A stretch of 64,000 nt of DNA. Source: Membranipora membranacea (Eukaryota > Bryozoa > Gymnolaemata > Cheilostomatida > Membraniporidae). The stretch's first letter is position 1; every line of letters starts with the position of its first letter. The notes below the pieces were generated by a model. It worked only from the letters and a program-made list of their open reading frames with translations. It ran no database searches and was not told the origin of the DNA. The translations under genes and the position numbers were made by a program. The stretch lies in NCBI GenBank assembly GCA_914767715.1, contig OU612065.1:17422001-17486000 (forward strand). The letters run 5' to 3'. Positions 49,266 to 63,268 of the stretch are shown here, piece after piece.

Positions 49266-52200
49266 TTATCGTACTCCAGTGGGCCGGATACCATCAACTT
49301 TAGACTGCAGATCATTGATGCGGATATCCTTCAGATGAAGAAGATGTTCCAGTCTCCGTACTTTGGCTTCAAGGATCTGAAAGAAGCGCAAATCAACAAT
49401 TGAAAAATCGGCATTTACTATTTATAGATATAGTAACATAAATACGATTGTGATGGGATACCAATTAAACCTCCGAGTAGAGTAGGTTTCTGTTAACATG
49501 TAGGCAGGCACTCGGTGCCCCAGTCAATGTGTTGGCTCTGATCTGATTGGCTGTGGGTTGGGATAGCCACTCAGAGCCAGCACATTAGCCAGGGTATCAT
49601 TTATCCGACATTGGATATGAACTCGTAAGCTTGTACCTGAATGGTCTCATCTCTTGACAGGACCTCCTGTACCTTCTCCTCCATCTGTATCCTTGGTACA
49701 TACTCTGCAGGTACAAGAGACGCTGATCCTTTGTTACCAGGTCCATCATTGGCTACCGGAGGTAACTTATGTTGAGAAAGTGGACCAGATCTACAATCAG
49801 ACAAGGAAACTTATTTAGGTATCAATGTTATTTTGAAGAGCCTGATTTTAATTGTTTTTTTAATATATTTTATTGACTGCCGTAATTATTTCAAATTACG
49901 GCTGCACTTCTAACTACAATTAAAAGTTGTGGAATATAATACACATAGATGAACCTTTCTTCTATGACCATCACAGCAAAATAGCAATGAAAAGCTGATA
50001 AATGATAAATATAAATGGCTACAAATCATCATTACAGCCATGTTGAGTTTTTATTACATGAGACGTCTATGACTGTGATTAATTGAACTAACCTTGCAGC
50101 AGGTTGTGTACCTGTCTGCTTCTTAGCGGGCTGATTCTTCCTGGGTGTAGGTTCTATAAAACAAATTTACAGATTACATTTATATCTGAATTTTAGAGCT
50201 AAATATAATTCATTCAAATGTTTTGCTGAGCAGCAGTGAGACTGCTTCTCATTGATGCAATATGACAGTGTGCCTCAGTGTTGGTCTCAATGACCAGGTT
50301 GAATGTATGGATGTTGCTTCAGGTAACTAATATTCAATCAGAGGCAAGCCCTGTGAAGGATAAGGTATTCAACCAAAATTTCTCCACCAAACTACTGTCA
50401 ATGAGTTCTGAGACTGTTGACTGGATTTCTTTAGTGTGATAGATATTTATAACCAACCAACATGGGAATTGCGAGTGAAACAAAACTCAGCTACAAAGTT
50501 AAAGGGTAAGAATTTGAACAAAACCAAGCAACAAGAGCATCAAAGAAACCAGAGTTCACCCTTTCATACTTTCTGTGAGGTTATTACAAAGAGTGAGTGG
50601 GGATCTTGGTTCTCTTGGCACTGTGAATCACAATGTTAGGGAAATGTTAGCAAGAAGCTGAGCAAAATATTAGCAGTTCATTACATAAGCTATTACCATC
50701 ACAAGTGGACACCTGTTACATGGTAAAATTGGATTATGGGTATGAGAATCTGAGACTTGAAGGGGAGGGTTGTGCTCAATATCAACTAATCGTTCCGGGC
50801 AATTCTTCAAATCAATTTTACAAAAACTCAACTGACCCGCAGAAGAGTAAACAAGTTATCTAGTTTTGTTTCTTTAGATACTTTTAGCACCTCATCTAAT
50901 AACTAAGTTTGTTAAAAAATTGGAGAACAGAGCATCAGATGTTCTGGCAATTAAGCTGTTCATTGATAACCATCAGTGAATTTAAACTTTCGAATTGCAG
51001 ACACATGTGGCAATCTATGATGATCATATGAACATATAAAGTTCTCATTCTGTCTGAGATATCCTCCCTCAATATCTGTTTAGGCGGTAAACTCTGGACA
51101 ATGAGCCATTATTCTTTGTAACTTGACCCATCATTTGTAGAAAGATGCACCACTCCAGATGTTAAAAGCAGACAGAAACGCTACGCAGGAGAAGTTAAGG
51201 CTACTGATGCAGCTTGAAAGACACACAAAAATTCACTAGAGCATCTAAATGACACCGTCTGCTGTTTACCTCTGTAGGGGGGATAATTCTCGGCAACAAA
51301 AGTGCCATTTGCTGAGTGAGGATAATAATTTTGCGTAAATCCTGCAACCAAATAGTTAGTCAATGTAAAAACATGGACTATGTACAGTTATTGAGGTAAG
51401 TTATGCTAGATCCTAATAGTAAGGTCTGACTCCTCGCCTGAACATTGTCTCCACCAGCTAGCCCCTCGGAGATCCGCCCGCCTAGACCTGCCCATACCAC
51501 CAACCACTCGAACCGAACTCCGATCGACGTGTCCGCTCATTTTCTATCATAATGCTTAAAAGTCACTCTCGATTCCACTTTTTTGTTTTTATATCCAAAG
51601 ATCAATAATAGATTTTGAATAATTTTTAAAATCTCTGATCAAATATAAAGCAACTATATATAGACACATCCATAGGTCTAGACATTTATTATTATTATGT
51701 CTATGGATACAGGCACAGACACAGGGTAATTAGTACCAAGTACAAAGAATCTTTATTAATTCTCCACAAGTCTAGTTTCTGTTCATGAGCTCTATTTCAA
51801 CAGGCTAAAATTATCAATAGCTCAAACCTTAGGCCTCATGCAACGCTCGAGGACACAATCATAAAATAAACACATACCGTGCTTGTATTGGTCAGCTTCA
51901 GGCTGATCATTCTGCTGCTTGCTGTGTTTTTCCCAGATGATGTTATCAATTTTAGTTCGCAGCATCAGTAATACCCTCTCAATCACAAATGGTTTGCAAT
52001 TCACAACCTGTTTTATAACATCATCTGCCAGCTCAAAGTGCAGCTTCTTAAACACTTTCCTAGAGAAAGCAAGGTGTATCATGTATAATGTCAAATACAT
52101 CAGTTGATATAGCAAGAACAGGCAATTACAATTCTCATGTTTGGAACCTTGTGAGAATTGTTTGAATGAAATTCATAAGATTATTACATAAATGATTGTT

Positions 52201-53128
52201 TCCAGTTCCACCACCAATCACGACTGCCACAGCCAATAGGTCGGACTTCACCACTTATACGTGTAATACTGGCTTAATAAAACCATAGACAAGTCAAGTA
52301 TATACAAATAAGTCTGTCATCATAAAAGGTTTCTAAACTACTCACATGCGCAAAGATAGCATCATACCTGTTTAAAACACTCCAATTCTCAATCTTCAAT
52401 TTAGTGCCAGTAGCGGGAGGGTAGTTATGAAGTTCCACTAATTTGGGAAAGTAATATTCAATGGTCTCAGCCACAAGAACTGTAAGACAACAATCCTGAG
52501 GATAGACATAGTGAAGTGTGATCGGGACAGGATGAGGATTGGAGTAAGTGCAACATTCATGCCCAATGTATATCCCAGTTGATGTGCGGTATGGAGCTAC
52601 CTTATTAAATCATTCACCAGTTATAACGGAAAACAGTAACATGAATGTGGAAAGGAATATACAATGATCATCGTGTGAAGCATGCTGGGAAGGAAGGACA
52701 AATGATTTACATTACCGGTTCAGCAAACGCCAATTTTCAATTTTTCTTGTGGTACTGCTGCTTGCCACAACGTTGTGAATTTCTACCATTTTAGGCAAAA
52801 AATGCCCAACTATTTCTGCCACAAGCACTTCAATAAAACAATAGCTTATTTTACATGAGATCGGAGAAAATTACATACAAATAGATACACACAACCAATG
52901 ACTTCAGAGATTCAACAATATTTATATGGTTAAAGCACATAACTTTTATGCAACCAAGGAGTAAACCCCTGGATGCAACTGACCTCCGTCTGAAAAATCT
53001 CTAGTTAAATTCTTCTTTGGTCTGGACAGAGGGATCTGATCCACCCATGAGTAGAGCTCCTGTAACACTGCGTCATCAATTTCGTCGGCAAAAGAAGTCG
53101 TCGACGCATTTTGAGTTTGGCGGGCCAT
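49266..53128 (-). CDS. SPEF1: SPEF1 (CLAMP), sperm flagellar/ciliary microtubule protein
   Basis: SPEF1 binds microtubules of motile cilia, flagella and apical cell cortex through an N-terminal calponin-homology domain. Exons (minus strand): 53128-52984, then either 52827-52716 or 52479-52368, then 52059-51878, 51341-51270, 50153-50093, 49790-49637, 49376-49266 (TAA); 278 residues, against about 236 in human. Phases match throughout. Exon 1 ends the first CH helix with L-Y-S-W-V-D-Q-I-P-L-S-R-P-K-K-N-L, then R-D-F-S-D-G, the SPEF1 signature. The exon at 51878 completes the CH domain (V-I-K-Q-V-V-N-C-K-P). The C terminus is a short coiled coil, V-R-R-L-E-H-L-L-H-L-K-D-I-R-I-N-D-L, also typical of SPEF1. 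The middle is Pro/Gln/Lys-rich. Oddity: the second exon exists in two diverged copies of equal length and phase. It is divergent with VPS28. Confidence 0.95.
49516..49593. repeat. GC-rich imperfect foldback in SPEF1 intron
   Basis: GTGTTGGCTCTGA at 49529-49541 pairs with TCAGAGCCAGCAC at 49571-49583 (one mismatch), and pairing continues outward and inward with gaps (AATGTG outside, GGCTGT/ATAGCC inside). GC-rich against an AT-rich background, like the MITE at 31772. No clear target duplication, so its class is uncertain. Confidence 0.6.
51668..51708. repeat. Imperfect hairpin related to that at 41647
   Basis: The right arm ATGTCTATGGAT pairs with the left arm ATCCATAG...ACAT if six bases (GTCTAG) are looped out; the spacer is a TTATTATT run. 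It shares the TTATTATTA-GTCTATG half with the hairpin in the WD40 gene. Lies in a SPEF1 intron. Confidence 0.6.
52368..52479 (-). CDS. SPEF1: SPEF1 alternative exon 2b (canonical CH-domain segment)
   Basis: 112 nt with the same phases as exon 2a. Reads V-L-V-A-E-T-I-E-Y-Y-F-P-K-L-V-E-L-H-N-Y, then P-P-A-T-G-T-K-L and K-I-E-N-W-S-V-L-N-R. The Y-F-P-K and H-N-Y residues match what I recall of vertebrate SPEF1, so this looks like the ancestral-type copy. Acceptor tgtcttacag, donor gtatga. Confidence 0.92.
52716..52827 (-). CDS. SPEF1: SPEF1 alternative exon 2a (divergent CH-domain segment)
   Basis: 112 nt, starts with two bases completing a Val codon and ends with two bases of an Arg codon. Reads V-L-V-A-E-I-V-G-H-F-L-P-K-M-V-E-I-H-N, then V-V-A-S-S-S-T-T-R and K-I-E-N-W-R-L-L-N-R. 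It keeps the L-V-A-E, P-K-M-V-E and I-E-N-W...L-N-R anchors but differs from exon 2b in the central part, where family members usually have an aromatic pair and H-N-Y. Acceptor ttattgaag, donor gtaatg. Confidence 0.9.
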
Positions 53129-60649: not shown

Positions 60650-63268
60650 CTATGAGGCCTGCACTGGGAAGTGCGGAAATTTTGCATTATTTTCTACAAA
60701 AGTTATAACTTTGGTGGGCGATGTGGCGATGGAGGACCGTTTGTACACAGGTTTCCTCCCCTGTGGAGATACTGGTACGATGAATCTCTCCTCTATAGTA
60801 GGAGATGTACTTGTGTGATGCATGATGTGGATGGACTTAGGTCGGGGGTTCTCACGCAACTCACGTAGCTCATCCATCGACCTAAATCGGCTCTTTTTGG
60901 TAATGTCAAGGTTTTCGGTGGAGTTCTTGTAATGCCCATCATCTACGTATGGATCCACCTCGGTTTGTAAGGATTCTACTGATCCTTGATACTTCTCCAC
61001 ATAAGACTTGGTGAGCTCGCTTCGGTTTGCCGCTGCAGGAAGATTGTTGTTAGATGCTCTCATTTCAGTTATGGTGGCTTGAGAGCTGGACAGCTTTTTT
61101 GTTCTGACTAGCGTACTGCCCTTTGAAGGAAACTTTCCTGCAGTAAGTGTGGCAAGCAATCCTCTTGGTTTACCATTGGTGGCGAGGACTGGCTGAGAAG
61201 TGCTCCTTACCTCAGTCTCCATCAGAACATGACGTGATTCTATTGTGTTTGTAGCCCAAGACCTCGGTCTGGGTTTAGGTGGTGCACCACCTCTTCGAAC
61301 ATAAGCATACAGATCATCAACTTCAGCGAACAATACATCTTCTTCAGTATCAAGTGTCATTGTGTGTTTATTATTGTTGTAAGCAGCAACCACCCCCAGT
61401 GTTCTGCGTCTTGAGGGCAGAGTTAGAGCTGAGAATGGCTTTGCTTGCTTGTTAGCACTGACCAACACCTGCATGGTGCGGAAATACTTTTCAACTTTAG
61501 TGTGGCACAAGGATGATAAAAGTTTGTAATATTGATGTTGACTGATTTCTGTCATGTTACATGCCTGCATCAGTTGAAGGTTGGTTCTGGTTGAGACTGG
61601 TATAAGCTTTTGATGAGATCTGAGAGGAAGGAAGAGGGCAGTGTTATCTTTCTGAGTCTCCATCAAGCGGAAAACTCCAGGGCGATCATTGTCACTAGCT
61701 ACTCTTGGAATCTGTCCAGAGACTATTCTGACTGTCAAAGGTAATCGAAACTGACCAACCAAACCCTCAATGTTGTGCACACCCGAGATGTTTGTTCTTC
61801 CTGCCATAGGGCTAAATTGTCCAGTGGTTTTGAAGTCGAAATAGATGTCCACACCATTGTTGTCTAGACAATGGAGGATATTTTTCTTCTGCTTCCTCCA
61901 GCCGTGGGTGATACTGAGTTGGCCTATGATGGTCATAACTTCACCTTTCTCAACTATTTTTGTTCGGTCATAATCTGGTTCTCCATTTTCCTCGCTAAGA
62001 TACGCTTTGGTTCTACTTCTGACGAGGAATTTATCTGGTGCTCTTTGTGTGATGTGTTCTATTGTCTTACTTGGTGAGATGGTCTTACCATCCTCCGAGA
62101 GAATCTCGAACCAGCCGTTGTATCCCAGAGGGATGGAGAACCTCTGACTAGAGAAGTATAGCTGACCATCTTTACCAACTAAGTCTACACACTGACAGAT
62201 CACCTTACGGTGGGGTACGATAGAGTGTAACAGTAGGTCTTCCTGTACAAGCTTTTCTGGTAAATGTGAATTGCTTGGTGTTTCTGTGACTCTCACAACA
62301 CAAGGAGTTGTCTCTCCCAGCTCCTTGTATTTCTTAAGCGGTATCGCCTGTAAAAAAAGTAAACATGGGATAATGAATGAAGTTGATCCGGTGTCATTAT
62401 GCATTGATTGCTTAATGATTACCATAAAGTAATCACAGCATCTTATTATCTCGAGTGAAAAGAACCTGGATCCGCAATGAGCCTTTCTGTCTGACATGAA
62501 AAAGAGGAAATCCCTTCCATTTCCACTAAAATAATCAGTGGTCAAAGCACAGCCAAGCCCTTATTGTGCGTTTATTAGTTCAAATGTCACAATCAATCCA
62601 TCTTGATTAATTACCTGTGGCAAAAAAGTCTGCTAGTGCAAGCAACGAATAGACTAAGAAGACCCACATGTCTAATGTTAACATTGGATGATGGTTCCTG
62701 AGGCAACCGGGTAAAAGTTGCTAGGAGTGGTTTTCAAAGATCCACAAGAATCAACTTAGCCCATAAAAAAGAATCAGATAAGCGATGCAGTCTATTTCTT
62801 AGCCGTTGGTAAATAATTATCAGCTGAGATGAGACTGCCATACATTACACTAATTGTGGGATTATATCAGTTAATCTGAGACAGATAAACATTTTACACA
62901 TACACGGCTGTTCGATGCTGCTTCTTAACAAGCTAATGTCCTTTTTATGTGAGATTTACTCCACAAGATTAACCGATTAATGTACCTAAATAGACAACAA
63001 GCTGCCCAATACCGATGACTCAAGTCAACTCAAGTCAAATTATAAGCTGCGGGAAGTGCACTGCTTTGGTCAAGTGGTTAAAATGATTCAATAATCTGAA
63101 GGCTCAAACTTGTGCTTCTTGCCAAGATATTCTGTCTGCTTAGGAAAACATGGGTGTGGTGCGCCAAATCTTATCCTAAGTTTTTTGGACGGGAACTGAA
63201 ACTGTACTATAATCTTGGAAGTGAGAACCTACCTCAGTACCTACTAGATTAAACCTTGTGATAACCAT
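60650..63268 (-). CDS. CABIT-domain protein, GAREM/THEMIS-like signalling adaptor
   Basis: Two exons: 63268-63233 (ATG with A at -3 and G at +4; donor GAG|GTAGGT) and 62347-60650 (stop TAG), both phase 0, giving 577 residues. The first exon (12 codons) rests on start context and donor only. The large exon opens with a CABIT domain over roughly residues 13-280: I-P-L-K-K-Y, L-L-L-H-S-I, R-F-S-I-P-L-G-Y-N-G-W-F-E-I-L, then D-K-F-L-V-R-S-R and V-M-T-I-I-G-Q-L. CABIT proteins (GAREM, THEMIS) are GRB2-linked adaptors in receptor-tyrosine-kinase or antigen-receptor signalling. The C-terminal half is disordered and has a proline/basic SH3-type site (A-P-P-K-P-R-P-R-S) and two YxN sites of the GRB2-SH2 type (Y-N-N, Y-K-N), in keeping with that role. 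Only one CABIT domain is seen, which favours GAREM over the two-domain THEMIS. The frame stays open for 66 codons upstream of the exon-2 acceptor, which I read as intron. Confidence 0.82.

Follow-up and report, generated by a model that had tools for sequence, protein, structure and literature searches.

The gene for sperm flagellar protein 1 (SPEF1) of the bryozoan Membranipora membranacea carries exon 2 twice, in tandem, inside the calponin-homology (CH) domain, and its coding outcome is one copy or the other. On the sequence evidence the two copies, 2a and 2b, are probably a working mutually exclusive pair. SPEF1 pre-mRNA would be spliced either 1-2a-3 or 1-2b-3, giving two proteins whose differences are confined to 38 central residues of the CH domain. 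This domain is described as binding the microtubule seam (PMC11642885), and the central microtubules of motile cilia are reported to depend on SPEF1 (PMC9796845).

The SPEF1 gene of Membranipora membranacea

The analysed stretch of DNA, called the window here, is 64,000 nt long, and its minus strand encodes SPEF1 in full. The exon model was built from homology and splice borders, and every intron in it has GT-AG ends. All exons and introns given below lie on the minus strand. The coding part of exon 1 (52984..53128, 145 nt) encodes the start of the CH domain. It is followed by exon 2a (52716..52827, 112 nt, VLVAEIVGHFLPKMVEIHNVVASSSTTRKIENWRLLNR), the alternative copy, by an intron of 236 nt that separates the copies (52480..52715), and by exon 2b (52368..52479, 112 nt, VLVAETIEYYFPKLVELHNYPPATGTKLKIENWSVLNR), the form found in Bugula and Watersipora. 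Exon 3 (51878..52059, 182 nt) encodes the end of the CH domain. Then come exon 4 (51270..51341, 72 nt) and exon 5 (50570..50620, 51 nt), both possible cassette exons, and exon 6 (50093..50153, 61 nt). Exon 7 (49637..49790, 154 nt), placed by the gene model and by the match to the solved chain 9ijx, encodes linker and the start of the C-terminal coiled coil. Exon 8 (49266..49376, 111 nt) encodes coiled coil and carries the TAA stop. Stop codons occur in frame 1 of the exons; the coding frame is another one. Scans for tRNAs and against Rfam gave no matches.

The Pfam CH_2 domain was found with 114.9 bits when 2b was included and with 110.3 bits when 2a was included, at a cut-off of 27 bits. Residues 224-286 of the protein match chain 9ijx_A (Sperm flagellar protein 1) with an E value of 2e-10. 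A protein search was carried out with the 2b isoform (best 120 of 464 matches), and a further search gave 173 matches, of which again the best 120 were used. Among the matches listed, the closest full-length relatives were SPEF1 proteins, namely P0002 from Bugula neritina (SPEF1), P0003 from Watersipora subatra (SPEF1-like) and P0001, which is near Bugula. With gap columns counted, these three are 66-67% identical to the window protein, and the brachiopod Lingula follows with 47% among the matches listed. Without gap columns the identities are 78.8% for P0001, 75.5% for Bugula, 80.3% for Watersipora and 53.6% for Lingula; Bugula and Watersipora SPEF1 are 78.6% identical to each other on the same count. 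An earlier placement of the window species outside the pair of Bugula and Watersipora had rested on the identities that count gaps, and it was dropped once gap columns were removed. A search with Watersipora SPEF1 in genome contig and viral contig collections returned no DNA relatives. No SPEF1 of the window species itself, with either copy of exon 2, was seen in the protein collection, so the lack of a matching 2a record speaks neither for nor against that copy.

Exons 4 and 5 have lengths that are multiples of three, and their phases are equal. The residues that they encode are absent from P0001-P0003. They look like cassette exons that could be skipped within the linker.

Two copies of exon 2, of which one at a time can give protein

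The first-pass annotation had reported a doubled exon 2, and its coordinates, the lengths of 112 nt, the AG/GT borders and the phases proved exact to the base. It had called the two encoded segments about half identical, which agrees with 20 of 38 residues alike when the two split codons are counted. At the nucleotide level 68 of 114 positions are identical, and there is no difference in length. When exons 1 and 3-8 were joined with either copy alone, an uninterrupted SPEF1 of 295 residues was obtained. Inclusion of 2a and 2b together gave a message that reads ...LNRSCG-stop, just as had been predicted, and with neither copy the frame was lost and a stop followed within exon 3. Thus only one copy at a time can give protein, since both or neither lead to an early stop. 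Exclusivity would therefore be enforced at least by the reading frame: the wrong products stop early and should go to nonsense-mediated decay, which as a general rule destroys early-stop transcripts. A CAG acceptor 16 nt upstream of 2b was also considered; by arithmetic, its use would leave the frame of double inclusion broken.

Each copy of exon 2 was compared with the 64 kb window by tblastn. Either one found the other at E = 2.7e-11, and no third copy was detected in the window. Exons 1, 3, 7 and 8 have no second copy in the window, the best other match having an E value of 0.17 (exons 4-6 were not used as queries). As these exons are single, nothing there points to a duplication of the whole gene in tandem. 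The two copies are tandem duplicated exons by the usual description: they are adjacent, internal, of equal length and phase, and homologous. In PMC3228551 such exons are described as adjacent, homologous, equal in length and phase, and used one at a time, and mutually exclusive tandem exons are a well-known kind of event (PMC3228551, PMC9741552, PMC6071210).

Apparent protein-level constraint on both copies

Both exon 2 copies look to be under protein-level constraint. The differences between 2a and 2b fall on first, second and third codon positions in the numbers 14, 9 and 23, with 38 sites each (Fisher p = 0.0025, third against the first two positions), a bias that also reflects constraint on 2b. 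By the NG86 method dN was 0.32 and dS was not computable, that is, silent sites are saturated.

A family profile was then used as a measure of how well each copy fits the SPEF1 family. It was built from 75 of 124 exon 2 segments, with bryozoans and near-duplicates left out. Copy 2a scored 84.7 and copy 2b 89.1. The 75 family members, scored with each one left out in turn, ranged from 65.1 to 114.4 with a median of 97.1; 12 of them scored below 2a and 15 below 2b. Copies evolving free of constraint were simulated from present-day 2b as a stand-in for the ancestor. At 46, 30 and 23 changes none of 20000 copies each matched the score of 2a, and at 15 changes three of 20000 did so. At 46 differences 25% of the simulated copies were free of stops.

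Single positions were inspected as well. Glu53 and Pro60 are invariant in all 126 distinct segments and are kept in 2a. The pattern by which segments were cut from the proteins requires V or C at position 49, N at 80, W or Y at 81, L or M at 84 and N at 85, and 2a has these conserved sites too. Invariance at these five positions is partly built in, because the cutting pattern requires them; E53 and P60 are exempt from this. At position 68 copy 2a has Val, a residue found in none of the 126 distinct segments, of which 119 have Tyr. Relaxed selection or disruptive change in 2a had been named beforehand as what would speak against a functional pair. As far as one genome tells, the profile simulation and dN do not show 2a as a decaying duplicate.

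Splice sites and intron pairings

The way in which one copy might be chosen was addressed by RNA folding. Folding of the 924-nt region gave a z-score of +1.07, with 17 of 20 shuffled sequences at least as stable. For the best duplexes between three introns, 148, 174 and 56 of 200 shuffles did at least as well. Paired docking sequences, which had been suggested as a thing to look for in the intron between the copies, were thus not found in this one species, either in the fold or as intron duplexes. Assignment to the Dscam-like class with docking and selector RNA was considered and rejected for this one species, as competing intron pairings were lacking. Steric exclusion is not invoked, since it usually needs an intron shorter than the 236 nt found between the copies.

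Among the eight acceptors listed, only that of 2a lacks a pyrimidine before the AG. This acceptor would suit a gene in which 2b is the default and 2a the regulated form. The choice may be made by a protein regulator, or the sites may simply compete.

Some bivalve SPEF1 proteins differ in the same segment

Comparison of family members showed that some bivalve SPEF1 proteins differ by a swap of the same segment as the window exon 2, which is newly recognised here. For this, 199 of 204 proteins were screened for pairs in which different exon 2 segments lie between flanks identical over at least 25 residues on either side; the other five could not be cut by the pattern. The screen gave 19 pairs. 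Nine were set aside as near-identical (33-37 of 38 residues, as in species or strain differences), and one repeated the Ruditapes pair. All nine pairs left belong to bivalves, as shown by their names or by close identity to a named bivalve protein. They come from C. virginica (genes A and B), a C. angulata-like gene A, Ostrea edulis, Saccostrea cucullata, Ruditapes, Mya, Dreissena and Mizuhopecten. Seven of the pairs consist of two database isoforms named from the same species. SPEF1-like records such as C. virginica X5/X25, Ostrea edulis X2/X8 and Ruditapes X46/X43 belong to the gene family of the window gene and have the same segment exchanged between identical flanks.

The two remaining pairs combine a named record with a short contig (P0035/P0013 and P0032/P0034). 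The tag lgn was taken to mark contigs assembled from public reads. P0013 equals P0035 except for exon 2 and one other residue, and P0034 equals P0032 except for exon 2 and for two features of P0032, an extended start and a linker segment. Isoform numbers in bivalves also span proteins that differ throughout (P0117, P0105, P0101), so the bivalve case rests on identical flanks. The pairs are known from proteins alone, and recent gene copies with identical flanks would look alike.

One record bears on the genomic ends of the exon. P0206, a frame on a contig of 3487 bases, ends in the second variant (v2) of the C. virginica segment, and its exon 2 end residues are as in the window. It runs from non-homologous sequence, presumably intron, into v2 and stops at the last residue of v2, and is thus an independent sign of where the exon ends in the genome.

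The bivalve v2 segments are marked by Tyr83. Of the 216 proteins that could be parsed, 28 have it, in 11 distinct segments, and the other 188 all lack it. These 28 are not a population count, as a third search was seeded with a bivalve v2 segment, and 16 of the 232 proteins could not be cut. Twenty-five of the 28 are named, and every one of these is a bivalve, Solemya included. In Tyr83 the bivalve v2 differs from both window copies, and the v2 of clams and zebra mussel further has two extra residues.

The isoforms of Ruditapes (P0015/P0057) and Mya (P0025/P0041/P0076) also vary just before the coiled coil, whereas exon 7 of the window is present as a single copy. In Ruditapes the variable stretch reads ESDMVPRYVVEEKEQEVLSRDETIQ in one form and EGDLVPRILLEEREQEVLAKDEMVK in the other. 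Mya P0041 seems to carry the two kinds together, so exclusion is not strict in this second variable stretch. A further SPEF1-like form of bivalves (P0100, P0117, P0105, P0107, P0108 and others like them) begins with METIT.R, and its exon 2 is preceded by KDF[SA]D[AG]. Some proteins of this form share an isoform-number series with other bivalve SPEF1 forms.

Decay, poison splicing or a working pair

Two other explanations of the window pair have to be weighed against a working one. Copy 2a could be a decaying or unused relic, an old duplicate left open by chance after 2b took over. The other bryozoan proteins found (P0001-P0003) are all of the 2b type, and 2a has the odd residue 68 and a slightly weaker acceptor, which would fit such a relic. 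However, the copies are equal in length and the splice sites are intact. A relic with silent sites as saturated as these should also have lost its frame or its conserved residues: a quarter of the simulated copies escape stops, yet none of 20000 keeps the score. We therefore regard a relic as improbable. Alternatively, 2a could be spliced in mainly together with 2b, so that a stop-containing RNA lowers SPEF1 output and no second protein is made. Double inclusion would indeed give a stop roughly four codons after the start of 2b, ahead of the later junctions. A poison exon, however, needs no conserved protein, whereas 2a is constrained and keeps the CH pattern, and the bivalve swaps give full proteins. 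This second alternative appears still more remote than the first, and a working mutually exclusive pair remains the preferred explanation.

The swap and the tubulin contacts of the CH domain

Nine residues of Tetrahymena SPEF1A have been proposed to touch tubulin (PMC11642885), a paper in which the CH domain of human SPEF1 was also examined for seam binding, bundling and effects on microtubule dynamics. The solved chain 9nw3 was taken as Tetrahymena SPEF1A because the letters and numbers of the nine contacts agree in the alignment, and positions in the window protein equal those of Tetrahymena SPEF1A plus 11. Exon 1 encodes the sites of R25, K28 and R32 (R36, K39 and R43 of the window protein), exon 2 those of H55, S62, Y68 and T72, and exon 3 those of R76 and K80. 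The first-pass annotation had placed the swap in the microtubule-binding surface, and this is borne out in so far as exon 2 holds four of the nine contacts proposed for Tetrahymena SPEF1A.

At the sites of H55, S62, Y68 and T72, copy 2a has H, S, E and L, and copy 2b has H, G, E and V. The swap thus alters two of the four exon 2 contact sites, and the two forms share the contacts that lie in exons 1 and 3. At the S62 site, a contact to beta-tubulin, Ser is kept in 2a and replaced by Gly in 2b. At the T72 site, a contact to alpha-tubulin, 2a has Leu and 2b has Val; this site differs between the variants in nine of ten pairs (the window pair and the nine bivalve pairs). Sites that differ between 2a and 2b mostly vary across the family anyway. 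We infer that the swap would retune the grip of the CH domain on tubulin at the microtubule seam, with binding not lost.

Age and origin of the duplication

The age of the duplication was approached by comparing exon 2 segments. Of the 204 proteins, the 187 with a segment of 38 residues were used. Copy 2a was nearer to a coral exon (27/38) and a limpet exon (25/38) than to 2b (20/38). The closest matches of 2b were Bugula (34/38) and Watersipora (33/38). Mean closeness to the 187 family segments was 21.0/38 for 2a and 21.7/38 for 2b. All three bryozoan proteins P0001-P0003 have the 2b form, and no bryozoan protein of the 2a form was seen among the matches listed (120 of 464 and 120 of 173). 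P0001 represents six sequences, and clustering at 90% could conceal a 2a form.

A tree was calculated from 38 columns, with 55 proteins hand-picked from the 204 and the two window copies. Two inserted residues were deleted from the rows of clam-type v2, and the bootstrap had not settled. The four bryozoan 2b segments formed a clade (100/99), with 2a outside it. The tree put 2a beside a coral (98/77); as descent this is impossible, and it shows that the resolution of the tree is low. In AU tests a clade of 2a and 2b gave p = 0.37 and one of all five bryozoan segments p = 0.368. Grouping of 2a with oyster v1 gave p = 0.452, of oyster v1 with v2 p = 0.366, and of clam v1 with v2 p = 0.379. Taken together, the segments suggest that the duplication predates the split of these bryozoans, in which case Bugula and Watersipora would have lost 2a or have it unannotated.

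A single duplication of exon 2 in an early lophotrochozoan might have been the source of both the bryozoan and the bivalve pairs. Such an origin is compatible with a working pair. It would account for 2a being nearer to the coral (27/38) and limpet (25/38) exons than to 2b (20/38). The first and last residues of the exon are the same in the C. virginica-like frame P0206, and Tyr83 of v2 is common to oysters, clams, a scallop and Solemya. However, Tyr83 is present in neither window copy, and no starred branch of the tree links a window copy to bivalve v1 or v2. The AU tests reject nothing, not even oyster v1 with v2 or clam v1 with v2, and the average closeness to the family is no greater for 2a than for 2b (21.0 and 21.7 of 38). 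The screen also gave no pair with identical flanks and different exon 2 from gastropods or Lingula, where 90% clustering may conceal one. We consider a single origin rather doubtful.

Relation to known exon switches

Like the two copies in SPEF1 here, the mutually exclusive exons of Dscam, muscle myosin, OGDH and ion channels are homologous neighbours inside the gene that agree in length and phase. In contrast to Dscam-like systems, no docking or selector RNA was detected for the window gene. Tandem duplicated exons are reported to be enriched in ion channels (PMC9741552). SPEF1, a ciliary binder of the microtubule seam, is a different kind of protein, and SPEF is not mentioned in PMC9741552. 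Within lophotrochozoans, the alternative oxidase of C. virginica (PMC5589949) likewise has a duplicated exon that is spliced alternatively, in an unrelated gene. Tetrahymena also has two SPEF1 forms per organism, SPEF1A and SPEF1B; these are described as separate genes (PMC11642885), whereas one gene with a swapped exon is found here.

The first-pass annotation knew of no described exon switch in SPEF1. The publications searched agree with this: no description was found in the openly licensed PMC literature, where broader topics were judged by titles and the starts of abstracts among the matches listed. It does not hold for database records, since those of bivalves list SPEF1 isoforms that differ at this very place.

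A wider interpretation can be offered tentatively, at less than even confidence. An old SPEF1 exon switch, shared among lophotrochozoans or evolved repeatedly in them, may exchange the part of the CH domain that reads the alpha/beta-tubulin contacts of the seam. A single gene could then serve different microtubule lattices, tubulin isotypes or cilium types, each with a seam binder matched to it. Such a natural exchange within the tubulin-facing surface would provide paired proteins for testing what the seam contact recognises. Bivalves suit an early and decisive test, as public records already list isoforms with either segment; RNA-seq data are plentiful for oysters and clams.

Elsewhere in the window, a stop-to-stop stretch of 636 codons was noted at 60650-62560 on the minus strand. 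It contains a Pfam CABIT domain (78.8 bits, cut-off 24), as do THEMIS/GAREM-like proteins.
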